Positions 17,371-39,497 of a stretch of 45,185 bases of DNA are shown piece after piece (the first letter of the stretch is position 1; each line of letters begins with the position of its first letter). Made by a program: the position numbers and the translations under genes. The stretch lies in IMG/VR virus record IMGVR_UViG_3300032117_000050, positions 1 through 45,185 of that record; one strand, 5' to 3'. This DNA is from a virus. The notes under the pieces were generated by a model that was not told the DNA's origin, did not search any database, and worked only from the letters and a program-made list of their open reading frames with translations.

Positions 17371-17490
17371 ATGTCACAGTTAATGTATTACGACACAGTT
17401 TCAGGGCAGTGGTTGCCTGTCGTAGTTGGGGCGCAAGGATTAACACAAGAAGAGATTAATGCTCTTATAGGAGATACAAGTGGCTATTGA
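17371..17490 (+). CDS. Tiny protein (39 aa) upstream of long fibre gene
   Basis: The frame begins right after the previous stop, with AGGAGAA as ribosome site, and encodes MSQLMYYDTVSGQWLPVVVG and a helix LTQEEINALIG. The YDxxxxxWxPxxxG pattern resembles the small fibre-attachment modules at the start of collagen-like fibre proteins. It overlaps the next gene by 11 nt. It may be a detached attachment module. Confidence 0.5.
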   Translation: MSQLMYYDTVSGQWLPVVVGAQGLTQEEINALIGDTSGY

Positions 17491-19666
17491 TTTCCCCGCA
17501 TATCCTTCCCTTAATCAAATATATACTTTTGGTTCCCGCACGTGGAAGTGGACAGGTCAAGGTTGGCAGGCTGTCTCTACAACATATGGACCTCAAGGCG
17601 TTCAAGGTTTACAGGGTCTTCAAGGTGGCGGTTTCAATCAAGCTCAAGGTTTACAAGGATTTTCTGGAGCGCAGGGCGCTCAAGGTGTTCAAGGCCTTCA
17701 AGGGACGCAAGGTTTACAAGGAGCACAAGCCGCTCAAGGAACTCAGGGTTTACAAGGCCTTCAAGGTATTCAGGGTTTAACAGGCTCACAGGGAGCGACA
17801 GCTGCTCAGGGATTAAGTGGTACTCAAGGTACTGCTGGTACTGCGGGCTCTACTGGCGCGCAAGGAACCCAGGGCGTACAAGGAACTTTAGGTTCTCAAG
17901 GATATTTAGGTAACACAGGCGCTCAGGGAGCGCAGGGCACTCAAGGCCTTCAAGGTACGCAGGGTGTAGGCGGAGCCCAAGGCTATCTTGGTAATGCTGG
18001 AGCTCAAGGTGCTCAAGGCGCTCAAGGTACACAAGGATTACAAGGAGCGCAAGGTACTGCTGGTGCGCAAGGTTATCTTGGTAACGCGGGTGCTCAAGGA
18101 GCGCAAGGCGCACAAGGAACTCAAGGTATTCAAGGCTCATTAGGTGTACAAGGAACTATTGGAACTTTAGGCTCTCAAGGAGTTCAGGGGTCTCAAGGGC
18201 TTGCAGGTTCACAAGGTACCCAAGGAACTCAGGGATTACAAGGAGCTCAAGGTTTCTTAGGTAATACTGGCTCCCAAGGTGCTCAAGGAACGCAGGGTGC
18301 TCAAGGTATTCAAGGCACTTTGGGACTTCAAGGATTTACAGGAACTCAAGGAACTACTGGTTCAACAGGTTCTAATGGTGCTCAAGGCACTGCTGGAACT
18401 AACGGAACTAATGGTTCTCAGGGAACTACTGGAGCTACTGGCTCACAAGGTACTAATGGCTCTAACGGCTCTCAAGGCACACAAGGCTTGCAGGGAACGC
18501 AAGGTCTTCAAGGTCTTCAAGGCGCACAAGGAATTCAAGGCGCACAAGGAATTCAAGGCAGTTTTGGAACTAGCCCAGTAGTTTATCCCGCCGCCACCAC
18601 TTCAGTTGGATTTACACTTCAAGGATTGGCTTCTCAAACCGCTGATTTGCAAGAGTGGAAAAACTCTGTCGGAACTGTTATCGCCTCTGTTGATGCTAAC
18701 GGAAACCATAACTTCCCTAATATGGGGTTTGCGGGCAAAAACGCCATCATCAACGGCGGTATGGACATTTGGCAGCGTGGTACTTCAACCACCTCTGGCG
18801 GATACCAAACGGCAGACCGATGGAATAACTCGGTATCTGGAACCACAACAATTTCTCAAGAAACAACAGATTTGCCTAATGGATTTCAATACGGAATCAA
18901 GTTTGTTACTGCGGCATCTTCTTCTTTTGCTCAGTTCAAAACTTACCTAGAGCGCACTTCTGTAATTCCGCTAAGAAATCAAGTTGTAACCATATCTGGT
19001 TATCTAAAGATTACTGGCGGTTTTTCTGGTAATTGGGTTGGTCAGATTTATTACAGCAATACGACTGATACGGCTACATCTGTAACAACTCAAGTTGGCT
19101 CCAATGTAACTATTGGAACATCAGCAACATCAGCTTGGACAAGATTTAGTTTTCAATCCACTATCCCATCTGATGCCGTAGGACTTGGCGTTTTGTTTGT
19201 CCCCGACACGTTGCAAGCATCTGGTGTTACAGTTCGTACGACTGGTATTCAACTAGAACTTGGCTCTACTGCTACCACCTTCTCTCGCGCTGGTGGAAGT
19301 ATCGGGGGAGAGTTGGGGCTGTGTCAGAGGTATTACTACAGAAGTAGCTCTACAGGAGCCAACCCTGGCGAACAAACTAGACTAGGTGAAGCTATTGCCT
19401 ACTCAACTACCCAGGGTTTAGGCTTTATTAAATTCCCCGTAACAATGAGAATTATTCCTACCGCTTTAGATTTTGCTTCTCTTGTTGTTTATCAAGGAAC
19501 TACAGGGCAACCATCTTTAACCAGTGTATCAATTAACACCGATTGGCAAAATCAAAATATGGGAGCAATTAACTTTGTCTCTAGCGGGCTAACAACTACA
19601 ACCTCTTATTTCTTAGGTGTTACTCCTTCGGTTAGCGCATATGCTGGATTTAGTGCGGAACTATAA
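17480..19666 (+). CDS. Long collagen-like tail fibre with C-terminal receptor domain
   Basis: Starting at GTG 17480 behind AGGAG, the 728-aa product has an N-terminal attachment module (FPAYPSLNQIYTFGSRTWKW), about 350 residues of Gly-X-Gln/Thr triplets, then a ~340-residue C-terminal region. The latter opens with GKNAIINGGMDIWQRGTST and has ADRW, the signature of a widespread phage fibre domain with a carbohydrate-binding jelly-roll. It ends in LCQRYYYRSSS and a beta-rich tail. This is the most likely host-receptor-binding fibre of the window. Confidence 0.85.
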   Translation: MAIDFPAYPSLNQIYTFGSRTWKWTGQGWQAVSTTYGPQGVQGLQGLQGGGFNQAQGLQGFSGAQGAQGVQGLQGTQGLQGAQAAQGTQGLQGLQGIQGLTGSQGATAAQGLSGTQGTAGTAGSTGAQGTQGVQGTLGSQGYLGNTGAQGAQGTQGLQGTQGVGGAQGYLGNAGAQGAQGAQGTQGLQGAQGTAGAQGYLGNAGAQGAQGAQGTQGIQGSLGVQGTIGTLGSQGVQGSQGLAGSQGTQGTQGLQGAQGFLGNTGSQGAQGTQGAQGIQGTLGLQGFTGTQGTTGSTGSNGAQGTAGTNGTNGSQGTTGATGSQGTNGSNGSQGTQGLQGTQGLQGLQGAQGIQGAQGIQGSFGTSPVVYPAATTSVGFTLQGLASQTADLQEWKNSVGTVIASVDANGNHNFPNMGFAGKNAIINGGMDIWQRGTSTTSGGYQTADRWNNSVSGTTTISQETTDLPNGFQYGIKFVTAASSSFAQFKTYLERTSVIPLRNQVVTISGYLKITGGFSGNWVGQIYYSNTTDTATSVTTQVGSNVTIGTSATSAWTRFSFQSTIPSDAVGLGVLFVPDTLQASGVTVRTTGIQLELGSTATTFSRAGGSIGGELGLCQRYYYRSSSTGANPGEQTRLGEAIAYSTTQGLGFIKFPVTMRIIPTALDFASLVVYQGTTGQPSLTSVSINTDWQNQNMGAINFVSSGLTTTTSYFLGVTPSVSAYAGFSAEL
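17900..18340 (+). repeat. Imperfect 81-90-nt tandem repeats in fibre shaft
   Basis: A unit opening with Gly-Tyr/Phe-Leu-Gly-Asn recurs at 17900, 17981, 18071 and 18251 (spacing 81, 90 and 180 nt), each followed by Ala-Gln-Gly-type triplets. These units indicate growth of the shaft by duplication. Confidence 0.75.
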
Positions 19667-20067: not shown

Positions 20068-20844
20068 ATGGAAAATTCCGTAGGAAATACATTTGAGATG
20101 TATGAGCGCGTTCTATCAATAAAGAATGCGCTCAAACTCAAAACCCCACTTGATGTAAAGTTTACCCGCCTCGGTAGTGCACATGATGGCGGGTATATCC
20201 TTGTTGATGACGTAAATGGCGCAGACCACGTAATATCTTTAGGCGTTGAGGGCAACGTTGATTTTGAAAAAGATATTATGGAAAAAGCCTGCCATATCTA
20301 TATGTACGATAATTCTATTGATGGGCTTCCAGAGCCAGTAAAGCGCTCCACATTCTTTAAGAGAACGATGGGAAGCATACAAAACGGCCACGCCTCCTTA
20401 GGCAGTTGTATTCAAGACGGCTGGGTTGGTGATGACGAAGACGACGACTTTGCTGGGTTTGCTGGCGGTGACGACTACATTCTAAAGATGGATGTAGAGG
20501 GCGCCGAATACGATTTACTTGGGGAAGCCTCTCGGGACACCCTTACATATTTTAGACAGATTACGGTGGAGTTCCACGACACTGACCGCATTGAAGATGA
20601 AGACTTCTATAAGAAAATGCTTCATGCGTTAACCCATCTACGCGAAACGCATACCCCCGTATTTGTTCACGCCAATAACAATATACCGTTAACTATAAAA
20701 GGAAACTCGCCCTTTCCTCAAGTGTTTGAGGCAACTTTTCTACGCAATGATAGCTATAAGTTTGCGGAAGAGACTGATTTGTTTGAAGGTTTAGTTACAA
20801 GAAACGATTTGCCTAAGCCAGAGATTGGGCTTACTTTTCCTTAA
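20068..20844 (+). CDS. FkbM-family-like SAM methyltransferase
   Basis: The 258-aa product fits small methyltransferases of the FkbM/Methyltransf_21 type: FTRLGSAHDGGYILVDD, the SAM-binding strand VISLGVEGNVDFEKDI with an acidic turn MYDNS, and the diagnostic DYILKMDVEGAEYDLL. Such enzymes O-methylate sugars. It may modify host or virion surface glycans, inferred from the glycosidase-like gene opposite. It converges with the minus-strand operon, the stops overlapping by 4 bp. The start at 20068 lacks a ribosome site and is chosen as leaderless; ATG 20098 is an alternative. Confidence 0.78.
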   Translation: MENSVGNTFEMYERVLSIKNALKLKTPLDVKFTRLGSAHDGGYILVDDVNGADHVISLGVEGNVDFEKDIMEKACHIYMYDNSIDGLPEPVKRSTFFKRTMGSIQNGHASLGSCIQDGWVGDDEDDDFAGFAGGDDYILKMDVEGAEYDLLGEASRDTLTYFRQITVEFHDTDRIEDEDFYKKMLHALTHLRETHTPVFVHANNNIPLTIKGNSPFPQVFEATFLRNDSYKFAEETDLFEGLVTRNDLPKPEIGLTFP

Positions 20845-25649: not shown

Positions 25650-27428
25650 ATGGCCGTTTATACACGCCCTGGGGTGTACGTTCAAGAAACGCTAAACCCT
25701 AATGCGCCAACACCTGGCGTAGCTTCACTCTCAATCGCAGCCTTTATCGGCACCAGCGACCGCGGACCAACTTCCGCAGCAACCTTGGTAACCTCTTGGA
25801 GCCAATACGTAAGCAAGTTTGGCGGATGGAATACCATCTCGAACAACAACTTGCCTATCGCTGTATACCTCTTCTTCGCTAACGGCGGAACTCAGGCGTA
25901 CATCACACGCGTACTTGGTAACACAACCTCTGCAGTTGTTACAGCCGCATCTTGGACATCTGCTTCAAGCGGTACTGTAACTTACACAGCTAACAACACC
26001 TTTACCTCTGGTCAAACAGTTACGGTTACAGGTTTGGCTAACTCTGCGTGGAACGTATCTGGCGCTACTATCGCAACAGCGACATCCACATACTTCACAG
26101 TTACAGGTATTGCTACAGCAACTAACCTTACTGGAGTTACAGCAACGGCTACTGCTATTACTGGATACCCAACAGTAGCAACTCGTACACTCAGCGACCG
26201 CGCAGGTAGCCCTCTTCAAACCCTTACGATTGCCTCTAATAACTCAGGTACTTGGGGAAATAACCTCTATATTGCTATCCAAGACAGCCTCTCAACAGGT
26301 TACTTTAACGTAATCGTATACCTAGGCGGAACTACCTCGGGATACATTGTTGAGCAATGGACTGACGTAACCATGAAGTCTACGGATGCACGTTATGCTG
26401 TAACCGTCATCAACCAGAACTCTGCGTACATTACAGCTACAGACTTGCTCTCTATCTCTGGAAGCCCAACCAGCAACCCAGCGGTTACAGGAACAAATAC
26501 CAATCTAGTCCCAGTAGTTCTCAGCGGAGGTAGCGACAACAACAACGTATCTTCTGCTAACATCTCAAGCGCGCTTAGCTTGTTTGACACTATTGCCTCT
26601 ACTCTAATCCTAAATATCCCAGGATTTACAGACGCAACAACAGTCAACCTAGCTCTGGCCTACGCTACAGGTTCTACTCGTTCTAACGACGTCTTTGTAA
26701 TCATTGATGGAATCAACGACACCGCCACCAACCAGCTGGCTCTTGCGGCAACTTACAGCGCAACATCCTCTGGAGCGGTTTACTACCCACAAATTACAAT
26801 CTCTGACCCAACAGCCGCAGTTGGTTCACCTACAGGTGCAACTAAGACTGTCGGAGCGGGTGGAGCTGTCGCAGGTCTTTTTGCCCGCACAGACGCTTCT
26901 CGTGGAGTATTCAAGGCTCCAGCTGGTCTTCAAGCTCGTCTGTCTAACGTAGTTTCTGTACCATCACTCAGTACCACTGACCTTGGTAACCTTAACAACG
27001 GAACTGTGCCTGTCAATGCAATTCGCTACATCACAGGTTCAGGCTTTGTAGTTATGGGTGCTCGTACCCTAAAGCAGGGATATGTAGACAAGTACGTACC
27101 CGTTCGTCGAACCCTAACTTACTTGGAAAAATCTTTATCTGACTTGACGCAGTTCGCTATCTTTGAGCCTAATACCCAAGTTCTTTGGAACCGAATTAAC
27201 TCTGTAGTCGGAAACTTCCTAAATCAGTTCTGGGGTCAAGGCGGTCTATATGGAAATACCCCATCAGCCGCTTTCTTCGTAAAGTGTGACTCAGACACTA
27301 ACCCACAGTCATCTATTGATAACGGGTTTGTTAATATTCAAGTTGGAGTCTCTTTGCAGCGTCCAGCTGAATTCATCATCATCAATATCGGTCAGTTCAA
27401 CGGTGGAACCACCGTTACTACGGCGTAA
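25650..27428 (+). CDS. Tail sheath protein
   Basis: The 592-aa product starts YTRPGVYVQETLNPNAP and has SIAAFIGTSDRGP and YVSKFGGW, the sheath signature, and ends with TNPQSSIDNGFVNIQVGVSL and PAEFIIINIGQF, the conserved C-terminal sheath domain. Sheath contraction drives the tube through the host envelope. Residues about 97-175 form an extra Thr/Ala-rich beta-module (core TVTYTANNTFTSGQTVTVTG at 109) between conserved parts. A near-identical core occurs in the gpI-like protein at 36654. AAGGAG precedes the ATG. Confidence 0.95.
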   Translation: MAVYTRPGVYVQETLNPNAPTPGVASLSIAAFIGTSDRGPTSAATLVTSWSQYVSKFGGWNTISNNNLPIAVYLFFANGGTQAYITRVLGNTTSAVVTAASWTSASSGTVTYTANNTFTSGQTVTVTGLANSAWNVSGATIATATSTYFTVTGIATATNLTGVTATATAITGYPTVATRTLSDRAGSPLQTLTIASNNSGTWGNNLYIAIQDSLSTGYFNVIVYLGGTTSGYIVEQWTDVTMKSTDARYAVTVINQNSAYITATDLLSISGSPTSNPAVTGTNTNLVPVVLSGGSDNNNVSSANISSALSLFDTIASTLILNIPGFTDATTVNLALAYATGSTRSNDVFVIIDGINDTATNQLALAATYSATSSGAVYYPQITISDPTAAVGSPTGATKTVGAGGAVAGLFARTDASRGVFKAPAGLQARLSNVVSVPSLSTTDLGNLNNGTVPVNAIRYITGSGFVVMGARTLKQGYVDKYVPVRRTLTYLEKSLSDLTQFAIFEPNTQVLWNRINSVVGNFLNQFWGQGGLYGNTPSAAFFVKCDSDTNPQSSIDNGFVNIQVGVSLQRPAEFIIINIGQFNGGTTVTTA

Positions 27429-27442
27429 GGGAGATATAACTA

Positions 27443-28084
27443 ATGCCAACAAATACTAACTTCAACTCAACCCTAGCGACTGACCCTTTACGCGGTTTTA
27501 GGTTCACCGCTACGTTTACTGCGGCAGGGGCTGACGCAACATTCAACACTAAAATCACTACAGGTTTTACTGGAGGATTCAGCTCAATCTCTGGTTTGTC
27601 TATTAATACCCAAGCTATCCAGTACCGCGAAGGTGGAATGAACACCACAGTTCACCAGATTCCTGGTATGACTACATTCAACCCAATTAGCTTTAGCCGT
27701 GGAGTAATCCTAGGCAATGACCAAGCTATGGTGTGGATGCGCGGGCTGTTCTCAGCTGGAACTGGCGCAGGCCTTCCTGCGGGATATAACCCAGTTACTA
27801 ACCCAAACCCAGGCGCTACTGCGGCGGGCGCAACAGGAAACTTCCGTACGGACATAATCATTAATGTCAATCAGCACCCAAATACAAGCACTACTGTGGA
27901 TTACCCACAAATGGCTTTTAAAGTGCATAACGCATGGATTACTGGCCTTAACTACACAGACCTGGATGCGACCAATGGTGCGATTCTGTTTGAAACAATG
28001 CAGCTTGTCCATGAGGGCATCTCTGTATTCTTTACAAATACTACGGGAAGTCCTTCAGACGGTAAAAACACAAGCGACTACTAA
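27443..28084 (+). CDS. Tail tube protein
   Basis: The 213-aa product begins DPLRGFRFTATF and has FSSISGLSINTQAIQYREGG, then PISFSRGVI and MVWMRGLFS, followed by KVHNAWITGLNYTDLDATNG and MQLVHEGI, the T4 gp19-type tube pattern. It polymerises to the inner DNA-conducting tube and lies directly after the sheath gene, as in other myophages. Confidence 0.92.
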   Translation: MPTNTNFNSTLATDPLRGFRFTATFTAAGADATFNTKITTGFTGGFSSISGLSINTQAIQYREGGMNTTVHQIPGMTTFNPISFSRGVILGNDQAMVWMRGLFSAGTGAGLPAGYNPVTNPNPGATAAGATGNFRTDIIINVNQHPNTSTTVDYPQMAFKVHNAWITGLNYTDLDATNGAILFETMQLVHEGISVFFTNTTGSPSDGKNTSDY

Positions 28085-28085
28085 C

Positions 28086-28094
28086 TGATAAGAT
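28086..28094 (+). promoter_or_regulatory. Candidate extended -10 promoter before tail chaperone
   Basis: TGATAAGAT followed by TAG is nearly identical to TGGTAAGATTAG at 7364. It lies 29 nt before the GTG at 28123, which has AAGGAG. It may raise expression of the chaperone and tape measure genes. Confidence 0.5.
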
Positions 28095-28122
28095 TAGCCC
28101 ATTAACCTAAGGAGAATAATTC

Positions 28123-28926
28123 GTGAGCACAACTGATACACCAGTAGTAGTAACAGACGCTGATTTAATTAATAAGTATGCAGCTATGGCGACAGAGGAG
28201 CCAGAACAGGTCGTAGAGACCCAGGCTCCTCTCGGACCAGAAGTAACTCTTCCTGGAGGATTTATCCTCGACGGGGCTGTGGTAAACACCGCTGAAGTTC
28301 GTGAGTTAAACGGAGTTGATGAAGAGGCTATCGCTAACGCACCAACTACAGGAAAAGCTCTTAATATTCTTCTTCAAAGAGGTCTGGTAAAGATTGGCGG
28401 AAAAGACGTAACTAGAGACGACTTGGATGCGCTTCTTGCGGGAGACCGAGACGCCATTCTTATCGCCATTCGTCGTGTTACTTTTGGTGGCACTGCAGAA
28501 TACAGGGTCACATGCGCAGCTTGCGATACAGACCAGAACACCGTAGTAGACCTAGATAAAGATGTTCCTGTTAAAAAGCTGGAAAATTCTGAGGAACGAA
28601 CTTGGAATGTAGAAACGAAAAAAGGGTTTGTTACTGTGGGGCTACCTACAGGAATTACTCAAAAGAAGTTGCTTGAGAACTCAGAAAAAACATCTGCCGA
28701 ACTCAACACTATTCTACTTTCTGGGTGTGTGCTATCAGTAAACGGTATTCCATCTATGGGAGCCAGCACAGTGCTAAAGCTTGGTATGGCTGACCGCGCA
28801 AACCTTGTAAAAGAAATTATTGAACGTAACCCAGGCCCACGCCTTGGGGAGGTGAAGAAGGCATGCGAGGCATGTGGTGAGGAGATGAATCTCCCTATCA
28901 GCCTCGTTGATTTGTTTCGTATATAG
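28123..28926 (+). CDS. Tail assembly chaperone (gpG-like, zinc-binding)
   Basis: The 267-aa product lies between tube and tape measure, the standard place for a gpG-like chaperone, and resembles the T4 gp26-type proteins of myophages. It has LPGGFILDG, a region with DLDALLAGDRDAILIAIRRV, and two CxxC pairs (C131/C134 and C248/C251) that could bind zinc. Start is GTG behind AAGGAGAA. The frame ends at TAG 28924, but the +1 frame continues from 28889 to 29068 with a typical chaperone extension. Confidence 0.75.
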   Translation: MSTTDTPVVVTDADLINKYAAMATEEPEQVVETQAPLGPEVTLPGGFILDGAVVNTAEVRELNGVDEEAIANAPTTGKALNILLQRGLVKIGGKDVTRDDLDALLAGDRDAILIAIRRVTFGGTAEYRVTCAACDTDQNTVVDLDKDVPVKKLENSEERTWNVETKKGFVTVGLPTGITQKKLLENSEKTSAELNTILLSGCVLSVNGIPSMGASTVLKLGMADRANLVKEIIERNPGPRLGEVKKACEACGEEMNLPISLVDLFRI

Positions 28927-29068
28927 AAAAGAAGATTACGAACTTTTATTAGATGAGTACGAGTTTCTAACAAGAAACTTTACAGGTTGGACTCTCTCGG
29001 ACATACGGGGATTATCCGTGCGAGAGAGGCGCAACTGGATAGAACGAGCGAAACGAAATAGGAGGTAG
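28889..29068 (+). CDS. Frameshift extension of tail chaperone (gpGT-like)
   Basis: This open stretch is in the +1 frame relative to the gene above. From the overlap it reads VYRKEDYELLLDEYEFLTRN, then FTGWTLSDIRGLSVRERRNW and IERAKRNRR, with the LSVRERRxW pattern of gpT-like extensions. A +1 slip at TTT-C (28915-28918), just before CGT ATA TAG, would give ...VDLF-VYRKED. The alternative is independent start at TTG 28907 (53 aa). It ends 2 nt before the tape measure ATG. Confidence 0.72.
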   Translation: MSLSASLICFVYRKEDYELLLDEYEFLTRNFTGWTLSDIRGLSVRERRNWIERAKRNRR

Positions 29069-29070
29069 TC

Positions 29071-31392
29071 ATGGAAGATGACGTCAAGCTGGCCTTTGGC
29101 CTTGGCGGCAAGATGGGTACAGCCGTCACTAACATTAAGAACGACCTCCTAAGCTTAGCTAGCATTATCGAAACAACGCTTCTACCTAAGATTGATAAGA
29201 TGGCTAGCCGCCTTGAGTCGGTTAGCAAAGATTTTAGTGGCCTTCTTATTGCTGATAAGTACGGGCGAGTTACGGGCACCTCAGGGGGTTCAAATAGAGT
29301 AGCCCCACCACCTCCTACGGATACTGGTAATAACGGAGCCCCTCCAACTAATAATCAAAGCCCTAAGACACCACAGGATAACTCCGCTGGTAAGCCTACT
29401 AACAATAAGATTGCGGCTGGGGCGCAGGCTGTGCTTGGCGGAATGTACGGGTCTAATCTACTTAGCATGGCCATGCCAAACGTGCAGACCTCCATCATGC
29501 AGGACTACCTCACTAACCGTGTAGCTTTTAATGGGGCTGGGGGGATAACGGGTAGTTTACAAGGTCAAACAAGCCAAATAAATGCTTTGCAACGCTCTAT
29601 GGCAAACCAAGGAACAGCCACCAGCAGCATGGACGCAATTAATGCAATTATTGCTCTGCAAAATGCGGGGCTTGGCGGAGCAAAAAACTTTAAGCAATTA
29701 GCGTCGGGTGCCGCAGCCATTTCTAATTTAGAACCTGGCATGGGTCTTGCAGGTGCCGCTCAAGCTCAAGGAGCTGCTCAAGCCCCTACTACTGTAAATA
29801 TGCTTCGTTCTATTGGTATCAATATGCGTGACGCTAACGGTAATATGCTCACTACGGGTCAAATGATTGACCAAATATGGAACTTTTTAAATAAGAACAA
29901 CGGTGGCAAGAATATGGATAAGGAATCCATAACCATGTCCTTAGCCCCAGGTTATGGCCTATACAACATGCTTAGTAGCATGTTTAACGGCGACCCTATG
30001 ATGATTAAACTTGTAGGAGACGGATTAAAGCTTAAAGCTCAAACAGGTGGGGCTGCTATTGATTCCCTTACCCGTAATCAAATGAAAACTTTGGGCGGAA
30101 CCACTGGAACAGTTAATGCGATTGCTAACAAAACAGCTGCTCAAACAGAACTCTTAACCAATACGGCTGCAACTACTTCAGCTGGGTATGCGGCGTCTGC
30201 TGACTTAGCCGCGGCACTCAATAGATTTGCAGATATGGTCCCACAATTAACTTCGGCTTTGGGCGGATTAAACGGATTAATGTCTGGAGTAAAGGGTATA
30301 GGGGGCGGAGCACTCACAAGCGTTGCGGGCGCGTACGCCGCTAATAAAGTCGCAAAGAAAGTTGAAAGTACAGGCTTACTAAAGGGTATTGGAAATCTAT
30401 TTAGTAAAGGTTTTAACTTTCTTAAAGGTAATATGGTAAGAGCGGGGGAGGACATCGCAAAAGGTGATGTGCCTGATTTTGCCGCGGCGGTCATGGAAGA
30501 CGTAGCTGCGGGTGGCATCGCTGGGTTTGCTGGCGGTACATCTCGTGTACCTGGAACAGGGGATGGGGACATCGTTCCAGCCATGTTGACCCCAGGCGAA
30601 GCTGTTATTAATAAGGACGCTGCTGAGAAGTACCGTCCAATATTATCCGCTATGAACGCAGGAACCCTGCAAATGCACGCTGCTGGTACTTCTAATGTAG
30701 CTAAAGCTGAGTCATATTTATCTAAGATGAACTCTAATAAAGTAAGCGCGGGGGATTTTGCTCAAGCTATGCTCGTAGGATTAGGGGCGCCAACAGACGC
30801 GCAAAACGTCGCCAATCTAAAGCTATGGATGAGCGCTGAAGGTGGTAACTGGCTAAACACTGCGCATTTTAATCCGTTAAACACAAGCTATGGTTTAAAT
30901 GGGTCTACTAACTTTAATACTGGAATGGCTGGGGGAGGCGTACAGGCGTACAAGAGTTGGAAAGACGGATTAGACGCAACTCTGGGCACTCTTACAGGTC
31001 AAAACGCTGGCGCCCGCGGGTATGCGAACCTTGTAAAAATGTTGCAGGGTGGAAAAGCATCTCAATCTGAATGGATTACTGCTTTACAGCAGTCTTCTTG
31101 GGATAATGGTCACTACTCTAACCTTTCGCATGGGGGCAACTCTAAATATAATCCAAATTCTCCGTACTCAGGCCACGGTAGCGGTGGAGCAACGAGCACC
31201 AACCCTGCAGTACCTACGCAGGCGCAAATAGCCGCACACGCAGCATCTCTTAATAAAGATGCGACTAATAACCATAACTACGGTGGGGTTAGCATCACGA
31301 TTAATGCGCAAAATCAGTCATCAGATGCACTACTAAGTCAACTACAACAACTATTTGCGGGCTCAGGTATCGTAGCCCAGATTTCAGGGTGA
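29071..31392 (+). CDS. Tape measure protein with possible peptidoglycan-hydrolase domain
   Basis: The 773-aa product has a coiled N-terminal segment, a Gly/Pro/Asn-rich linker (about 70-110), a long helical region and the tape measure motif PGTGDGDIVPAMLTPGEAVI (about 493-512). The segment after it, about residues 560-720, has WMSAEGGNWLNTAHFNPLNT, YKSWKDGLDATLGTL and ITALQQSSWDNGHYS, like lysozyme-related domains found in phage tape measures that help penetrate the cell wall. Length sets the tail tube length. AGGAGG precedes the ATG. Confidence 0.85.
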   Translation: MEDDVKLAFGLGGKMGTAVTNIKNDLLSLASIIETTLLPKIDKMASRLESVSKDFSGLLIADKYGRVTGTSGGSNRVAPPPPTDTGNNGAPPTNNQSPKTPQDNSAGKPTNNKIAAGAQAVLGGMYGSNLLSMAMPNVQTSIMQDYLTNRVAFNGAGGITGSLQGQTSQINALQRSMANQGTATSSMDAINAIIALQNAGLGGAKNFKQLASGAAAISNLEPGMGLAGAAQAQGAAQAPTTVNMLRSIGINMRDANGNMLTTGQMIDQIWNFLNKNNGGKNMDKESITMSLAPGYGLYNMLSSMFNGDPMMIKLVGDGLKLKAQTGGAAIDSLTRNQMKTLGGTTGTVNAIANKTAAQTELLTNTAATTSAGYAASADLAAALNRFADMVPQLTSALGGLNGLMSGVKGIGGGALTSVAGAYAANKVAKKVESTGLLKGIGNLFSKGFNFLKGNMVRAGEDIAKGDVPDFAAAVMEDVAAGGIAGFAGGTSRVPGTGDGDIVPAMLTPGEAVINKDAAEKYRPILSAMNAGTLQMHAAGTSNVAKAESYLSKMNSNKVSAGDFAQAMLVGLGAPTDAQNVANLKLWMSAEGGNWLNTAHFNPLNTSYGLNGSTNFNTGMAGGGVQAYKSWKDGLDATLGTLTGQNAGARGYANLVKMLQGGKASQSEWITALQQSSWDNGHYSNLSHGGNSKYNPNSPYSGHGSGGATSTNPAVPTQAQIAAHAASLNKDATNNHNYGGVSITINAQNQSSDALLSQLQQLFAGSGIVAQISG

Positions 31393-31396
31393 GTAA

Positions 31397-32533
31397 ATGC
31401 CTCAAAGTTCAGCGTATGCGGCAGCTTCTTATAAAGCATTAGCAGCTACCGCCGCAGCCACCGCGGCGGCTAACGCCCCTTTATTTCCAGTAGCTGCTGT
31501 TCAAACCAACCAAGTAGCTGCGCCACCTCCAGGTTATTATATAGACCAATTTGGGCAAGCCGCACCTGTCTCATCTATTTCAAACATAACGGATAGTAAG
31601 GCGAGAGCGGTCGCTGCCGCATTGGCAACCAACGCAGTAAAAGCTAGCGCAGTAGCGGCTGCGAAAGCAAGTGCCGCTGCAACCTCTTCTCAAACGTCTA
31701 CGGCGGCCAAAGCAAATACTCCGTATAATATTCAATTCAATCTTCCACCCCATAAATGGAGTTTGCCAGTAGACCCCACTAATTTAGGGTATAACAAGAC
31801 TAAGCAAACCAGCGCGTCCTTTAATCACGGACTTCGTAGAGCAGCTATGTGGTTCTACGATGCACCGCCTGCGGGAGACACAGCCCCTAGCAGCGCGCAA
31901 GGTTTAGTTTCCACATCCAATGCTGCAGCGGCTACGGACAAAAATTTATTTGGTTTTCAATTTTTATGGAACCCAACCACACTAAGCAATTCTATTTCAT
32001 ATAATCCTGCGATGGCTCCATCATCAGCCGATGCATTTGCGCAACTAAACTCTTTGTTTACAGGCATGGAAAGCATGCAAGTTACCGCGCAAATCAATAG
32101 AGTGATGGACTTTGCGGCGTTTAAGGCTAACCCTAACATGTCATTAAGTGAAATGGCCAGCTCGTATGCAGCGTACAAAAACCCTCAATCTAAATCTAAG
32201 GCTGAAACCACTGAACAACAAATATCTGACCTGTTAAAACGCGGAACTATGGCGGACGTAGAGTACATCTATAGGATGGTCAACGGCATCGGAAACGCAT
32301 CTATACCTACTTTTACTAACGTCTTAGGTCGTCAAACAGCTGATTTAGCTTTTTTAGCCCCAACGGCTATAGCAATAAAATTTGGCCCAAACCCTGATAG
32401 TTTGTCGTACGTAGGTTGGTTAACACAGGTAGATGTTCAACACCTTCAATTTACTGAAGATATGATTCCGTTAGACACAACAGTAACCCTTAGCATTAGT
32501 GCGTTCTCTCGCACAACGTTAGCGAGCAACTAA
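31397..32533 (+). CDS. Tail/baseplate protein, unknown family
   Basis: The 378-aa product has an Ala-rich N-terminus (about 1-110, Ala/Thr/Val), probably disordered or helical, and a folded part with YNIQFNLPPHKWSLPVDPTN, FGFQFLWNPTTLSNSISYNP and a C-terminal VGWLTQVDVQHLQFTEDMIP. Proteins of this kind sit between tape measure and LysM protein in actinobacterial and other myophages and are baseplate or hub-assembly components. The start lies 4 nt after the tape measure stop and the stop overlaps the next gene. Confidence 0.6.
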   Translation: MPQSSAYAAASYKALAATAAATAAANAPLFPVAAVQTNQVAAPPPGYYIDQFGQAAPVSSISNITDSKARAVAAALATNAVKASAVAAAKASAAATSSQTSTAAKANTPYNIQFNLPPHKWSLPVDPTNLGYNKTKQTSASFNHGLRRAAMWFYDAPPAGDTAPSSAQGLVSTSNAAAATDKNLFGFQFLWNPTTLSNSISYNPAMAPSSADAFAQLNSLFTGMESMQVTAQINRVMDFAAFKANPNMSLSEMASSYAAYKNPQSKSKAETTEQQISDLLKRGTMADVEYIYRMVNGIGNASIPTFTNVLGRQTADLAFLAPTAIAIKFGPNPDSLSYVGWLTQVDVQHLQFTEDMIPLDTTVTLSISAFSRTTLASN

Positions 32534-32814
32534 TGGCTATCTATAAAGGCTCTAGATATGAGTACTCTAAAGTAGACTTTGTGCAAACAAAAGCTGCGGG
32601 AAATGCAAACCCTATTATCTTCTACAACATTCCTGTATTTACCAACCTTTCTTACTATGAGCATGTGTATGAAGCTGGGGAACGGATTGACCAGATATCT
32701 ACTCAGTACTACAGAACACCTAAGCTTTGGTGGTTAATTGCTGCGGCTAACCCCGCAATAAATGATTTATACAATATACCTGCGGGAACTTCTTTAAAGG
32801 TGCCCCGTGTTTAA
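32533..32814 (+). CDS. LysM-domain baseplate protein (gp53-like)
   Basis: The 93-aa product ends in a LysM-type segment: YEAGERIDQISTQYYRTPKL, WWLIAAANPAINDLYNIPAG and TSLKVPRV. Single-LysM proteins at this place join the tube to the hub. The start overlaps the preceding stop (TAATG), and 8 nt overlap the next gene. Confidence 0.85.
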   Translation: MAIYKGSRYEYSKVDFVQTKAAGNANPIIFYNIPVFTNLSYYEHVYEAGERIDQISTQYYRTPKLWWLIAAANPAINDLYNIPAGTSLKVPRV

Positions 32815-34147
32815 TTATTTAAAAGTAACTTTTCCTAACACTACGCTATCACCAAGCAGTGTGCTCTCTTTTAATTACTACCAAAACCGTTACAAGCATG
32901 AGGTTGCGGTCATAAAATTTAGAGATTGGAACGTTGAGTACTCTGTAATTTCTTCGGGTTCTCCTGTGCAATTTCAGATGTTTCATGGAGTTACCGCTGG
33001 GGCAGTAAAAACATTTTATGGATATGTCCACCACGTTTCACCTACCAGAACACCTGGCCAAAACATAACCGAAGTAACAGTAATCGGAGCCTCGTGGGTT
33101 ATGAAAAATGAAAGCCAACATATTTATAAAGGACTATCAGCTGACGCTATAGTTACCCAAATGGCAAAAAAGTATAAGTTTGCCTCTTTTACTGTGAGTC
33201 ACCCTCGCGTGTTCCCTCAGGTGTCTCAAGCGGGACACACAGACTGGGGTCTGTTAGTTCGTCTAGCTAAACAATGCGGCTACAGCCTACGTACAGAAAA
33301 CACTGAGATTTACTTTCAGCCTATGTTGTATGAGTATACAAATTATCGTTCTCAAGCGCCTCGCTTTATTATGCGTGAGTCTAATAACCCTGGCGGTTCT
33401 ACTATCTACAACTTTAAACCAATGATTGGCGAATCTATACCGTACGAACAGGAAACTAAAGCGGCTACCGCTGTGTCTGGTATAGATAGACCCTCTATAA
33501 ATGGTTTATCTCTTACGCAACCTACAAGAAATAAGAAAACTAGAAGCTCTTCTAGTTTAGAATTTTTTGATAAGTATGAGACTTCAATCGTCGCTAACAA
33601 TGCCGATACTGCTAAGCACGAAGCTAAAGCGGCCGAAGACCGAGCCTCTTTCCCGTACCGCGCTACAGTTGAAGTTAAAGGAGACCCTTTACTTCGACCA
33701 GATATGCCTGTATACCTACAGGGAGTTGGAGCTCAATACGAGGGCTATTGGACAATCTTAGGCACAGAGCACAAGATTTACGAAAAAGAGCGCAATAACC
33801 AGATATACACAACAATTTTAACTGTGGGTAGCGACTCTTTAGGTGCGGCGGTTACTTGGACAGATAATCAGACTATTACTCAACCCGCGGCTACTCCTAC
33901 TAGAACTATTATTCCAGGAGTAACGCAAACGGTTATTACCCCCAAGAGCACTTTAATAAACACAACCCCATACAACCTTCCTCAGAAAAAGGGAACATTT
34001 GGGACACTTAATAATAGAACTGGCGACTCTATATCTAGTCCTACTTGGATTTCACAGACCGTTACGCTTAACCCTATCTTGACAGTGCCTGGAAGCTCCT
34101 CTCCTACGCGCAGCACCGCCCAAGCCTCTATTGGAACGATAAAGTGA
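32807..34147 (+). CDS. Baseplate hub protein, gpD/gp27-like
   Basis: The 446-aa product starts at GTG 32807 and has the late-control-D-like pattern: LSFNYYQNRYKHEVAVIKFR, FYGYVHHVSPTRT, ITEVTVIGASWVMKNESQ, and DWGLLVRLAKQCGYSLRTEN. Such proteins form the trimeric hub that holds the spike. The C-terminal ~90 residues are Thr/Pro-rich and probably flexible. It overlaps both neighbours. Confidence 0.85.
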   Translation: MFNYLKVTFPNTTLSPSSVLSFNYYQNRYKHEVAVIKFRDWNVEYSVISSGSPVQFQMFHGVTAGAVKTFYGYVHHVSPTRTPGQNITEVTVIGASWVMKNESQHIYKGLSADAIVTQMAKKYKFASFTVSHPRVFPQVSQAGHTDWGLLVRLAKQCGYSLRTENTEIYFQPMLYEYTNYRSQAPRFIMRESNNPGGSTIYNFKPMIGESIPYEQETKAATAVSGIDRPSINGLSLTQPTRNKKTRSSSSLEFFDKYETSIVANNADTAKHEAKAAEDRASFPYRATVEVKGDPLLRPDMPVYLQGVGAQYEGYWTILGTEHKIYEKERNNQIYTTILTVGSDSLGAAVTWTDNQTITQPAATPTRTIIPGVTQTVITPKSTLINTTPYNLPQKKGTFGTLNNRTGDSISSPTWISQTVTLNPILTVPGSSSPTRSTAQASIGTIK

Positions 34148-34503
34148 TGAACGACGAATACGATAAAAGATTTTATGGAATTTACGAAGGCGTCTGCACT
34201 AATAATGCTGACCCAGACGGTAAATATAAAATTAAACTTATTGTTCCGCAGGTGCTGGGCAATAATGAAACAGACTGGGCTGTTCCTTGCCTTCCTGTGG
34301 TAGTAGACGCTGACCATGGAACCTCTGGCGGCCTGACCACCACTACAAGTTCCGTTAATGATGGGGGCACTGGTTCTTCATCACACAGCCATACAGTGAC
34401 GTTGACCACACATCAAAAAGTACCAAACCTTAATCAAAAGGTTTGGGTTATGTTCATTGCTGGAGACCCTAATTTTCCAGTCTGGATGGGAGTTGAACTA
34501 TGA
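34147..34503 (+). CDS. OB-fold spike protein, gp5/gpV-like
   Basis: The product is about 118 aa; the ATG at 34147 (or GTG at 34144) is used with a stop/start overlap. The segment RFYGIYEGVCTNNADPDGKY and KIKLIVPQVLGNNETDWAVP followed by VWVMFIAGDPNFPVWMGVEL is the OB-fold of the cell-puncturing spike (gp5 N-domain/gpV). No C-terminal needle is present, so the needle tip would need another protein. A Ser/His/Thr-rich loop lies at about 62-85. Confidence 0.85.
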   Translation: MNDEYDKRFYGIYEGVCTNNADPDGKYKIKLIVPQVLGNNETDWAVPCLPVVVDADHGTSGGLTTTTSSVNDGGTGSSSHSHTVTLTTHQKVPNLNQKVWVMFIAGDPNFPVWMGVEL

Positions 34504-34913
34504 GTTCTGACAGCGCTATAACTCTTCCTTTTTCTTTTAATAGCTCTGGGGGTATTAGCTATACGACCGATATTCGTAAAATCTGGCAAGACCGAGTGAC
34601 CTTAGTAGTTATGTCGCTAGTAGGGGAGCGGGTTATGCGACCAAATTTTGGGACAAATACGCGAGGTGCTGACTTTGAAAACACATCTAATGCTTTGTCT
34701 TTAATACAGTCCGAAATTGCCGCTGGGTTTTCAACCTGGCTACCTAATCTAACTCTTTTAGAGGTTACTGGGGCCGTAGACCCTGTAGATAACTCATTAA
34801 ATATAAACGTAAGCTACCAATATGGGTTAGGTACTACCGACTCCGTGGTCTTGCGTAATGCTATCCTTGACTCTACAGGCTCAATACTTTCGGAGGCTCC
34901 AATAAATGGCTAG
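34500..34913 (+). CDS. Baseplate wedge protein, gp25-like
   Basis: The 137-aa product has IRKIWQDRVTLVVMSLVGER followed by VMRPNFGTNTRGADFENTSN and a C-terminal VSYQYGLGTTDSVVLRNAIL. The pattern GERxMRPxFG is the gp25/W-type hallmark. It links the hub and the J-type wedge. ATGA start overlap with the spike gene. Confidence 0.92.
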   Translation: MSSDSAITLPFSFNSSGGISYTTDIRKIWQDRVTLVVMSLVGERVMRPNFGTNTRGADFENTSNALSLIQSEIAAGFSTWLPNLTLLEVTGAVDPVDNSLNINVSYQYGLGTTDSVVLRNAILDSTGSILSEAPING

Positions 34914-36654
34914 TTATGTTCCATCGGTAGACTATACCTCTAGAGACTACTCTGCCATTTTGTCAGATATGACTAGTCTTATCCCTAACTTTACGTCCAA
35001 CTGGACTAACCGCGACCCCGCTGATTTTGGCGTGGTGTTGTTGGAGCTTTTTGCTTACATGGGAGACCTATTAAGCTATTACATTGACCGCGCTGCCAAC
35101 GAAGCAATGATTACTACTGCTACTCAAAGACAAAGCCTTTTGGATATCTCCACAATGCTTGGTTACGTCCCAACGCTGGCTACACCAGCGACGGCATTAG
35201 TGACGTTTACTAACACTAGCGCTAGCGCTATAACTGTTCCAGCATTAACTCAAGTGGCGACATCCTTAATTGCAAATTCTACGACGTCTCAAGTAGTTTA
35301 TGAAGTTACCTCTGCGGTAACAGTCCCTGCTCAAGTGGGGTCAACTGCTGGAACCGTAAGAACCTCAGTAACTCAAGGCGTAACTGTTTCTAACGAAAGC
35401 GTTGGAATTTCCAATGGATATCCTTCACAAGTTTATCAATTAGCTAACACTTCTGTTATCAATAATAGCACTGTCGTAGTTATTAACGGCGTAACTTACG
35501 CTCAAGTTCCCTATTTGGTTGATTATGGTAGCTATGACCCTGTTTATTCAACATACGTAGATGAAAACAATATTACCTACGTTAAATTTGGCGATGGAGT
35601 TAGCGGCTGCGTCCCACCTAATGGAGCAACCATATATGTTACCTACAGAGTAGGTGGTGGGGTACTTGGAAACGTAGCAACAGGCCTGATTAAATATATT
35701 TTAACAATGCCTGGGTTTAACGCTATTCCAACAGGATTAAGCGCTGTCAACTCGGACGTAACTGCGGGAGATGGAGCAGCAACTGGGGGGGCGGATGCTG
35801 AATCCAATGACTCTATTCGCTATAACGCTCCTTTAAGTATTCGTTCTATCAACCGCGCAGTTGCGGTTAATGATTACGCGTATTTAGCTACTCAAGTGCT
35901 TAACGTAGCAAAGGCTATAGCGTACGCTAGCGTTTATTCTTCTATCACTATTTACATGTTACCTTCTGGAGACCCTGGAGTATCTTCAGATAACGTTACG
36001 CCGAGCGCTACTTTTAATACGGTATCCGCAAATGTTCTTTCTTATTTAGTCAACAAAGCCCCAGGAAACACTACTATAACCGTACAACCCCCTAAATGGG
36101 TAGGCGCGTACATTAACTTAAACATTACGGTAAATCCAACTTACAGTCAATCTGCAGTTAAAACAGCGGTTACAACCGCTATTAACAACTTATTTTTTGT
36201 GGATAACACTTACTTTAATCAAACTATCTCTGTATCAAGTCTTTATAACGCGGTAGCGGCAGTCCCTGGTGTGGCGTATCAAAGCCTTACAAAGATGGTA
36301 CGCGCAGATGCAGACCAGACCTATGTGGTTAATAACAAGCAGCTTGTATCTTCTGTGGCAACCCTAACCACGTCTACTACCCATACTTTGACCGTAGGAC
36401 AAACAGTGTCGGTAACTAACGTAGATGCCACATTCAACGGAACTTATGTAGTCACTGCGGTAACAAGTAACACGTTCTCATATGCCCTTATCGCCAGCCC
36501 TGTGAGCTCTACTCCAGTATCTGGTGGTGCAGTAACTGCGTTAACAGTTAAAGATATAGTATGCGCTGTTAGTGAAATTCCTATGATTTCCTACTCCAGT
36601 ACTTTCACACTAGGAAGCTTAAATATCACTGCTACAGGTGGTGTTACTAGCTAA
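34906..36654 (+). CDS. Baseplate wedge protein, gpJ/gp6-like
   Basis: The 582-aa product opens VDYTSRDYSAILSDMTSLIP and has DFGVVLLELFAYMGDLLSYY, FGDGVSGCVPPNGATIYVTY and YNAPLSIRSINRAVAVNDYA, the Baseplate_J signature. It forms the wedge ring. After about residue 475 it carries a Thr/Val-rich module (core TLTTSTTHTLTVGQTVSVTN at 486) like those of the sheath and the next gene, then returns to a short wedge segment. It overlaps both neighbours. Confidence 0.92.
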   Translation: MASYVPSVDYTSRDYSAILSDMTSLIPNFTSNWTNRDPADFGVVLLELFAYMGDLLSYYIDRAANEAMITTATQRQSLLDISTMLGYVPTLATPATALVTFTNTSASAITVPALTQVATSLIANSTTSQVVYEVTSAVTVPAQVGSTAGTVRTSVTQGVTVSNESVGISNGYPSQVYQLANTSVINNSTVVVINGVTYAQVPYLVDYGSYDPVYSTYVDENNITYVKFGDGVSGCVPPNGATIYVTYRVGGGVLGNVATGLIKYILTMPGFNAIPTGLSAVNSDVTAGDGAATGGADAESNDSIRYNAPLSIRSINRAVAVNDYAYLATQVLNVAKAIAYASVYSSITIYMLPSGDPGVSSDNVTPSATFNTVSANVLSYLVNKAPGNTTITVQPPKWVGAYINLNITVNPTYSQSAVKTAVTTAINNLFFVDNTYFNQTISVSSLYNAVAAVPGVAYQSLTKMVRADADQTYVVNNKQLVSSVATLTTSTTHTLTVGQTVSVTNVDATFNGTYVVTAVTSNTFSYALIASPVSSTPVSGGAVTALTVKDIVCAVSEIPMISYSSTFTLGSLNITATGGVTS

Positions 36655-39497
36655 TGGCACGTTACGGAATTGATTACTACGGCCTTGGAACGTACTCAGG
36701 AAGCGCGGCTGCTACAGCATCGTACTCTGCGGGTACCTTTTTAGCGAAGCCTTATAACTATGGAGCTATACAATTAACGTGGTCTACCCCGACGGCCGCC
36801 GCAGGAACTTCTATAGCTAGCTTAGTAATCGTAAGAAATCAATACGGCTTTCCAGTTAATCCGTATGATGGTACCCAAGTCCTAGTAAGTAGTGATAACA
36901 CTAACCCAACATCTTTTATAGATAGCACAGGGCTATCTGGTGGTGGGTACTTTTACTATTCTTTATTTATCTACGTGTATACAGCGTCTACCAATTCATA
37001 CGCATGGGTAAACGCGGGAACCGCTTATGGATTTGCGGTCACCAAGGCTGGATACACAGACCGTTTGTATGGGTCTATTCCAGATATTTATAAGATTTTA
37101 GACCCGTCCTCTGCAACGGCGGACTGGAGTAACCAAGACTTATATAACTTTTTAGCTAACTTTGGCTTTCAGCTTGATTACATGCAAAACAGCATTGACC
37201 TTTTACGCCGTAGGTACAATATCGAAAAAGTAAACGGTAACCTAGTACCAACATTAATGAATCAATTTGGATTTACTTATGAAGGCTCCTTAGGTCTTCA
37301 GCAAAACCGTATTCTTCTTAGAGACGCTATTACATTAAATAAGCAAAAAGGAAGTAAACAAGGGCTTACCGCTTTTCTTAAAGACTTCACGGGCTATGCA
37401 ATTCCTACGGCTTCTACAGCGCCTAACCCAAATGTTACTGGGGTAACACTGGGTCACAATTTAATGCTGGACTACAATGACTCTTCTGCTGAAGAAGGCA
37501 CAGGACACTGGGTTTCTTCAGATGGAACTTCAGACATGGACTGGCTTGGTACATTAAACGTCACCTCCGTTTCTCTAACCTCAAATGTGGCCACACTTGT
37601 CGTTGGTCCTCATCAATATGATGTAGGAAATTACATAACAGTAACAGGACTGCCTGCCACTTTATTTAATCAGTCGGTGCCTCAAGTAATTACGTCTATT
37701 GACCAAACTAACTCTATTAGTTTTGCATTGTCTTACGCCTCAAATGTGACCTCTACAAGCGGTTATAACTTAGCTACTAACACATACGGCCAAATACATC
37801 CTAACCCTATTCCTTGGTCAGAGCCTACTGCCCCTAGTCTGTTTCCAAACAAGACAGGTGGAATTCTTGCGCTATACAACATGTCCGCTACCGCTCAAGC
37901 AATTTCTGCTTACTGCGGAGATTCCGACGCTATCGGCCAAGGCATACCTGTAACTGCGGGAACTGTTTACTCTTTTAATTTTTATGTAGCAAACGGCGGG
38001 ACCGCAAGAGCGGTAACCCCTGTTATTAAGTGGTATGACCGTTTTGGTAAATACATTTCTTCTACAAGCGGAACTGCAATAACAGACACTGGGACACTGT
38101 TTTCTAGCTCGTACCGCCCTATAGTTAATGGCGTTGCTCCTACGTATGCTACAGCGCAAGCCATATCCACGTCATTAACTCAAGCGTATTACGCAGTACC
38201 TGGCTTATCTATTGCTAGCGTTGGTGGGTCAGCAACTAATGAGCACCACTACATTGATGCGGCACAATTTGAGGTGGCACCCGCGGCCACAGTAGCTGGA
38301 TTAACCGTACCTATCACGGCGGCTTCTGGAAACGGAACCACGGTAACGTATACAGCGGTTAATACGTTTGTAGCTGGGGATACAGTAAACATCACGGGAA
38401 TGCTCACATCATCTTTTAATTTTACAGCTGCAGTAATAACTAGTGCTACAAGCACACAGTTCACTATAGCAAGCACGTTAGCAACAGGTGTGGGCACCGT
38501 TACAGGTTCACCTGTTGCTGTTTTTGCTGGGAGTACTTTTGATGAGGCACGTCAACTTCATATCGTGCTAAAGGCTAATCGTATTAACGAGCTTATTAAT
38601 CCACATTTTGCTTCTCCTTTAACTCCTTGGACGGTAACTAACGCGTCTAGCGTTGTTATTAATAGCATTGAAGAGCCTACCTCACCAGAATTTGCTGTTA
38701 GTACCACAGGAATTGCAGGGGGAGTAGCTACTGTAACGCTTTCTTCATACCATACATTTACAGTAGGTCAGTCTGTATTTTTAACTGGAATATCTGGTTC
38801 TGGGGTAACTCCTTCAAGTTTTAATGGGACTCAGACTGTGGCTTCTGTTACAAATAATACTTTTACATTTAATACGGGAGCTCCTTCTCAAGCAACAACA
38901 ACAACTACGGGATTTGTGTACACCGCAGGAAACACTTTAGAGATTACAGCAACAGCGCCTAGCGTTACGGTGTCCTCTTGGGACGGGGCAACTGCTTCTC
39001 AATTAATGCCTATTTATTATCCAGGAACGTCCTACTCGTTCAGCGTATGCGCGCAATCGCTATCCACCGCAGAAAACGTTCAGTTAGCTATACAGTGGTA
39101 CAACTCTTCTAAAACATTGATAGGCACCTCTCTTGGAGTATCAACCGCTCTAAGTATTGGTAACTGGGTTCGCCCTTACGTCACGGACACGGCCCCAACA
39201 ACAGCCGCTTACGCTGTAGTTCAACTTTTATGGAGCACAACCACAGGACACTTCATCGCTATTGATGAGGCTCTGTTCGAGAATAATGGATTGGTCTTAC
39301 CATACTTTGATGGCTCTAATGGACAAGGGCTACTCCCTTATGACTTTATGTGGGAAGGCAACGTGGTCAATGGAGCACGAAGCCATTTCTACAAGAATCG
39401 TTACAGCGTACAAACGCGTCTACTAGGTACCAATATCACTAACCAGATTAATGCGGGGTCTACGGTAGCGTTTTACCTAGCACAGCCACAAACGTAG
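36654..39497 (+). CDS. gpI-like tail protein with lectin-like and beta-modules
   Basis: The 947-aa product has an N-terminal FN3-like part (about 30-130), then a gpI-like wedge part (RLYGSIPDIYKILDPSSATA, YNFLANFGFQLDYMQNSIDL and KGSKQGLTAFLKDFTGYAIP, about 136-255). The C-terminal ~690 residues alternate jelly-roll-like segments (IKWYDRFGKYI, IQWYNSSKTLIG, INPHFASPLTPWTV) with three beta-modules (cores at 314, 563 and 693). The jelly-rolls resemble carbohydrate-binding modules. It joins baseplate wedge and receptor-contact roles in one protein. Confidence 0.8.
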   Translation: MARYGIDYYGLGTYSGSAAATASYSAGTFLAKPYNYGAIQLTWSTPTAAAGTSIASLVIVRNQYGFPVNPYDGTQVLVSSDNTNPTSFIDSTGLSGGGYFYYSLFIYVYTASTNSYAWVNAGTAYGFAVTKAGYTDRLYGSIPDIYKILDPSSATADWSNQDLYNFLANFGFQLDYMQNSIDLLRRRYNIEKVNGNLVPTLMNQFGFTYEGSLGLQQNRILLRDAITLNKQKGSKQGLTAFLKDFTGYAIPTASTAPNPNVTGVTLGHNLMLDYNDSSAEEGTGHWVSSDGTSDMDWLGTLNVTSVSLTSNVATLVVGPHQYDVGNYITVTGLPATLFNQSVPQVITSIDQTNSISFALSYASNVTSTSGYNLATNTYGQIHPNPIPWSEPTAPSLFPNKTGGILALYNMSATAQAISAYCGDSDAIGQGIPVTAGTVYSFNFYVANGGTARAVTPVIKWYDRFGKYISSTSGTAITDTGTLFSSSYRPIVNGVAPTYATAQAISTSLTQAYYAVPGLSIASVGGSATNEHHYIDAAQFEVAPAATVAGLTVPITAASGNGTTVTYTAVNTFVAGDTVNITGMLTSSFNFTAAVITSATSTQFTIASTLATGVGTVTGSPVAVFAGSTFDEARQLHIVLKANRINELINPHFASPLTPWTVTNASSVVINSIEEPTSPEFAVSTTGIAGGVATVTLSSYHTFTVGQSVFLTGISGSGVTPSSFNGTQTVASVTNNTFTFNTGAPSQATTTTTGFVYTAGNTLEITATAPSVTVSSWDGATASQLMPIYYPGTSYSFSVCAQSLSTAENVQLAIQWYNSSKTLIGTSLGVSTALSIGNWVRPYVTDTAPTTAAYAVVQLLWSTTTGHFIAIDEALFENNGLVLPYFDGSNGQGLLPYDFMWEGNVVNGARSHFYKNRYSVQTRLLGTNITNQINAGSTVAFYLAQPQT

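Follow-up and report, generated by a model that had tools for sequence, protein, structure and literature searches.

The locus raises the question of why three different tail proteins, a sheath protein, a gpJ-like protein and a gpI-like protein, carry between them five copies of a similar short beta-rich segment, and what such a segment does in a phage tail. The window, that is, the whole stretch of 45,185 nucleotides that was analysed, is taken from an IMG/VR virus record and holds a contractile tail gene cluster. The three carriers are all encoded on the plus strand. The tail sheath protein (25650..27428, 592 aa, one module) has the C-terminal domain PF17482 (E = 1.8e-9) and belongs to the tail sheath family phrog_23 (3e-47). 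The gpJ-like baseplate wedge protein (34906..36654, 582 aa, one module) matches phrog_219 (7e-41) and exceeds the PF04865 cutoff (53.1 bits versus 21.1, E = 3.7e-14). The gpI-like baseplate/tail protein (36654..39497, 947 aa, three modules) follows gpJ, as in the relatives, and its match to Tail_P2_I (PF09684) lies below the cutoff (16.9 bits versus 20.6, E = 0.0058); the name gpI-like is a putative one, taken only from this weak match and the gene order.

Other genes of the window deserve a brief mention. A large terminase (4141-6486, Terminase_6C) carries an intein/LAGLIDADG-like insertion at residues ~353–556. Long collagen repeats (PF01391, E = 5e-46) at 17480-19666 possibly belong to a virion fibre or decoration protein, and an FkbM-type methyltransferase (20068-20844, PF05050) adjoins the structural genes and is followed by two minus-strand ORFs without a Pfam match.

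All five repeated segments described in the sequence-only reading were found at their places, and their boundaries on the plus strand were set with hidden Markov models (HMMs). Copy 1 comprises sheath residues 97–167, with its core at 109 (25938..26150), and copy 2 comprises gpJ residues 481–545, with its core at 485 (36346..36540). The gpI-like protein holds copy 3 at residues 303–371 (37560..37766, gpI-314), copy 4 at residues 554–620 (38313..38513, gpI-563) and copy 5 at residues 685–755 (38706..38918, gpI-693).

Judged from their sequences, the five repeats are copies of one domain family of ~70 residues. In BLASTP comparisons within the window, with composition correction, sheath residues 109–158 matched gpI residues 563–617 at E = 1e-8 with 51% identity, and gpJ residues 473–526 matched gpI residues 680–739 at E = 2e-7 with 40% identity, while the remaining pairs were weaker. 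Shuffle tests gave z = 10.9 for the former pair, 10.5 for the latter, and 2–5 for the rest. Profiles were trained on modules of other viruses only, to avoid circularity; they recovered the sheath copy and copy 4 at E ~1e-17, the gpJ copy at 1e-16 to 1e-22 and copy 5 at 1e-7 to 1e-9, and the recovery of copy 3, the weakest, was marginal (0.001 to 0.09). No other ORF of the window was matched by these profiles, and none of 1,503 decoys, consisting of 20-aa-block shuffles and reversed proteins in which the local composition was kept, matched them even at E = 100. Because profiles from other viruses recover all five copies and no decoy scores, Thr/Val composition alone, the danger to which the sequence-only reading had itself pointed, is ruled out as the explanation.

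At least two subtypes are present among the five copies, TYTAxNTF (sheath and copy 4) and HxF/L (gpJ and copy 5). The sheath copy and copy 4 had been called especially alike, but the two are not mutual closest relatives in the module tree, where the support is moderate. A recent duplication linking these two copies was considered and dropped, since their nearest relatives in that tree differ. In most of the sheath copies, no residue of ~68 is charged, compared with about 10% in the sheath core, and 19 of 41 modules lack any charged residue, compared with about 8–10% in host proteins.

AlphaFold2 applied to 41 modules returned a six-stranded barrel at moderate confidence (pLDDT 73.7, pTM 0.67). 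The best VIA-align match of the module model was the FCCH domain of UBA1 (Z = 9.5, 72 of 76 residues, 1.9 Å); phage tail proteins (FCWL1 tail, Z = 8.0; T1 tail tube, Z = 7.3) and endosialidase barrels (phi92, Z = 7.7; K1F, Z = 7.2; 74–75 residues) were matched as well, where values below Z = 8 may reflect a common arrangement, and the sequence profiles agree independently. Foldseek gave weak E-values (best 0.05), with E1 enzymes, endosialidases and a phage tail tube among its top matches. In the profile comparisons, PF16190 (E1_FCCH) matches 16 of 41 modules, the L045 carrier exceeds the curated cutoff of this family (36.6 bits versus 29.5), and the orthologue of copy 5 in L131 matches it at 2.7e-4. 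None of the window's own five copies reaches the PF16190 threshold, which counts against the explanation favoured below. PF12195 matches 3 of 41 modules (best 1.5e-5), with no match for the window sheath copy, and phrog_584 (major tail protein) matches 10 of 41 at E = 0.01 or better. A sequence search of the PDB returned the phi92 endosialidase first (E = 0.018). No Ig fold is among the structural matches listed, which is no proof against one, and the Pfam families listed for the modules include none of the Ig type. With moderate confidence, the module is predicted to be a six-stranded barrel of the E1-FCCH/endosialidase-barrel type.

The sheath query yielded 72 loci from viral contigs (numbered L here), mostly sheaths, the remainder being other module-bearing proteins. 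On the evidence of their alignment, the sheath module is an insertion. It lies at site A, about residues 91–177 of the window sheath, and the sheaths of L015–L023 (506 aa, ~66% identical to the window's) are without the ~86 residues that hold it. Site A is also filled in a distant clade (L033, L036, L042, L051 and L052; core 37–41% identical), and a second position, site B, at about residue 214 of the window sheath, is filled in L011, L013, L024 and L028 (core 57–63%), with module-empty sheaths interspersed between the carriers of the two sites. On a sheath core tree from which the module columns were left out, no fewer than four changes are needed to account for the sheaths with site A, with site B and with no module, and site A is found in two places. 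Despite the two sites and the divergent cores, all sheath modules form one supported group (98/95) in the module tree, which also encloses a few non-sheath copies. Between L011 (site B) and L035 (site A), the module is 87% identical versus 42% for the core, and their module DNA match is limited to ~190–215 bp.

The gpJ-like proteins also have two slots. The module follows residue ~472, as in copy 2, in the window, L018, L012–L014, L024, L026 and L034, the last having a different subtype, and it follows residue ~372 in L036, L042 and L052. The gpJ of L032, L045, L046 and L055 has no module, and the slot of copy 2 is empty there.

In the gpI-like proteins, L131 is the orthologue of the L018 virus; it is 53% identical to the window protein and keeps copies 3 and 5, of which copy 3 has an orthologue in L133 as well. 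Copy 4 is a clean, lineage-specific insertion that is missing from L131, L132, L133 and L138, the L138 protein having no module at all, and in L134 and L137 modules lie between the residues corresponding to window gpI 90 and 118. Because of the module presence and absence there, two TYTAxNTF-type insertions (the sheath copy and copy 4) separate the window from the L018 virus in the three proteins, and copies 2, 3 and 5 look vertically inherited in the window group.

Copies 3 and 5 are each placed in an early loop of one of two gpI repeats, at residues 376–548 (37779..38297) and 757–880 (38922..39293), both on the plus strand. The repeats are homologous (E = 2e-7, 27%); from their sequence we read them as jelly-roll-like. 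The pairs of repeat and barrel look as if they were duplicated together, the same early loop being used in both. For CBM_4_9 (PF02018) there was no match in the window gpI repeats or their close orthologues, and the hhalign comparison of the window repeats with CBM_4_9-bearing relatives was weak. CBM_4_9 carbohydrate-binding domains do exceed the Pfam cutoff in two module-less gpI-like relatives, L135 (371-4114, minus strand) and L136 (561-3791, minus strand).

A search for the module in other phage proteomes, which the sequence-only reading had proposed, found it in sheaths, gpJ, gpI and further virion proteins. The latter include a phrog_5838 virion protein with four copies (L045), a phrog_10646 baseplate wedge protein (L073) and minor tail proteins of phrog_10359 and phrog_1885. 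In the profile search, 1 to 8 copies were present in 12 of 12 records, which is not a general rate because the records were chosen as carriers or relatives. A tblastn search of named phages with two module sequences gave nothing at E = 0.01, for which the low-complexity filter is perhaps responsible; another module type gave weak matches to tail, fibre and 'endosialidase' genes of named phages. The module is a real, widespread accessory domain of known fold, and its proposed movement is supported in that it is a discrete domain which has moved from site to site and from one virion protein to another.

When the sheath is aligned to the solved sheath 8bky, sites A and B both fall in loops that bear indels. 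In T4, domain I of gp18 is a barrel of six strands set into domain II near its start; it faces outwards, has no contacts between subunits, and binds both the baseplate and the long tail fibres in their retracted state (PMC3004832). Extra sheath domains as a rule face away from the tube, and a part in adhesion or stability is proposed for them (PMC9230969). Because both sites are in indel loops, T4 gp18 domain I points outward and extra sheath domains lie off the tube, the module is likely to be exposed on the sheath. The sequence-only reading had suggested that the module is exposed, which holds in that the sheath site is a loop that tolerates indels and lies in the region of the sheath facing away from the tube; exposure itself is an extrapolation from the insertion loops and T4 gp18.

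One small barrel domain has been inserted repeatedly, in differing slots, into tail sheath and baseplate proteins of this freshwater phage and its relatives, where it probably serves as an interchangeable part for gripping or docking that is exposed on the surface. The reading that we prefer, with a probability of roughly 55%, is that the module is an autonomous accessory barrel in the outer loops of the tail, perhaps making weak multivalent contact with host polysaccharide. Its demonstrated basis is that the copies belong to one domain family, that the domain is inserted in some proteins and absent from their relatives, that it uses more than one slot in a given protein, and that the trees conflict. 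An autonomous, almost charge-free barrel would be inserted in-frame into loops of the sheath, gpJ, gpI, minor tail and other structural proteins, and the inserts would lie on the tail exterior because only peripheral loops tolerate inserts. Each sheath subunit would display one barrel, so that many barrels would line the tail, with more at the baseplate. The barrels may, less certainly, provide weak multivalent contact with host surface polysaccharide, which would keep the tail near the cell ahead of specific receptor binding. Glycan binding by the module is plausible by analogy with the K1F endosialidase barrel, which is a polysialic-acid site and a hotspot of host discrimination (PMC12632334). 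The same fold also serves in non-glycan roles, in ubiquitin E1 and T1-type tail tubes, which counts against adhesion.

A wider proposal, possible but rather doubtful, is that FCCH-like barrels form a shared pool of swappable surface cassettes among contractile-tail phages. A limited number of permissive slots, of which the sheath and gpJ would each have two and the gpI-like proteins at least four, would be filled, emptied or refilled with other subtypes, which would alter the number of weak glycan-binding barrels along the tail and with it the grip on different hosts.

Of the rival explanations, the one that survives best, although we consider it unlikely, is that the barrels dock or stabilise parts of the virion, such as the baseplate, the retracted fibres or neighbouring subunits, with no host contact. 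The T4 gp18 domain I described above is an inserted six-stranded barrel that binds the baseplate and the retracted fibres (PMC3004832), and T1-type tail tubes use a structurally related barrel. Site A also lies about ten residues after the sheath RV motif (87–88), and the T4 domains II and I begin at 88 and 98, respectively, a parallel that comes from numbering and topology, with no alignment. Sequence similarity to T4 domain I was not detected, however, as hhalign aligned 17 columns only, at a probability of 2.9%. Adhesion is favoured over docking on three grounds. Relatives 66% identical in the sheath go without the module and others carry it at the second site, which would be surprising for a surface dedicated to docking. 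Among phage barrels of known ligand, the nearest is a polysialic-acid binder with an influence on host discrimination (PMC12632334). Finally, CBM_4_9 domains are present in gpI-like relatives.

It is improbable that the module is a passenger, a self-folding domain that is tolerated in permissive loops and spread by illegitimate recombination with no benefit, as its patchy presence, its clean absence in relatives and its many unrelated carriers could suggest. In every informative pair, the module has a pN well below its pS, much as the core does, and purifying selection comparable to that on the core is seen within the site-B clade, where pN << pS. Amino-acid conservation also holds across the two sheath sites, A and B, even though the synonymous sites are saturated. 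Because pN is well below pS, the module is regarded as a constrained, working domain. The sequence-only reading had suggested that the module is adaptable; the comparison of pN with pS gave no sign of diversifying selection, and the lack of detected positive selection among these sequences counts against adhesion as well.

Vertical inheritance with loss in some lineages, where slow evolution mimics exchange, has a still smaller chance of being the whole account. The saturation of synonymous sites across clades, the apparent vertical inheritance of copies 2, 3 and 5, and the pair L051/L052, in which the module is 94% identical and the core 68% at equal synonymous divergence, all fit it, and the saturation indicates that the high identity of the modules is partly due to slow change of their amino acids. 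However, the module is no slower than the core in other clades (84 vs. 85% in L013/L024; 66 vs. 79% in L033/L042), it occupies two different positions in both the sheath and gpJ, which the data indicate is no alignment artefact, and the core tree has site A in two places. The movement of the module is old rather than recent, given the saturation of synonymous sites in comparisons of site A with site B copies. Spread by recombination, as had been suggested, fits the data, but a claim of recent exchange was given up.

Chance similarity of Thr/Val-rich strands can be dismissed, because, although T, S, N, A and G make up 69–76% of the sheath copies, decoys of the same local composition never score, the insertions are clean relative to relatives, and the fold match is independent.

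The preferred reading, that of an exchangeable accessory barrel on the tail exterior, bears on how phages remodel that exterior. Shuffling of accessory domains among virion proteins is already known, and so are extra sheath and baseplate domains, usually ascribed to Ig-like folds; domain mosaicism is described for receptor-binding and baseplate proteins in a study in which the sheath goes unmentioned (PMC10684548). In the open-access literature searched, FCCH domains were nowhere connected with phage proteins, and an interchangeable FCCH-type insert in sheath, gpJ and gpI slots appears to be undescribed there. Here, a single barrel of the FCCH type can be traced through presence, absence and relocation in three tail proteins among relatives, a natural experiment that shows which of a contractile machine's loops accept an insert. 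Related phages with differing sets of barrels would also permit a direct test of the role of the barrel in adsorption.

Compared with known systems, the module is closest in structure to the E1 FCCH domain (PF16190), its best structural match and a family whose Pfam model matches 16 of 41 modules; however, it is only 17% identical to UBA1, and nothing suggests a ubiquitin-like system here. The endosialidase barrel of K1F and phi92 (PF12195) has a similar fold and is a phage surface domain that binds polysaccharide (PMC12632334), but it is found in a tailspike, whereas the module is found in sheath and baseplate proteins. The barrel of T1-type siphophage tails (9l0f, 9jlf) is the same by structure (Z = 7.3–8.0), but it is part of a tail-tube protein or of one at the head-to-tail interface, and optional insertion is not shown there. 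The Ig-like accessory domains of phages are likewise acquired beta domains of structural proteins and are proposed to aid adhesion or stability (PMC9230969), but the best-matching fold of the module is an FCCH-like barrel and not an Ig sandwich. Domain I of T4 gp18 differs from the module in that no sequence similarity is detected between them, and it is like the module in being a six-stranded, inserted and outward-pointing barrel.
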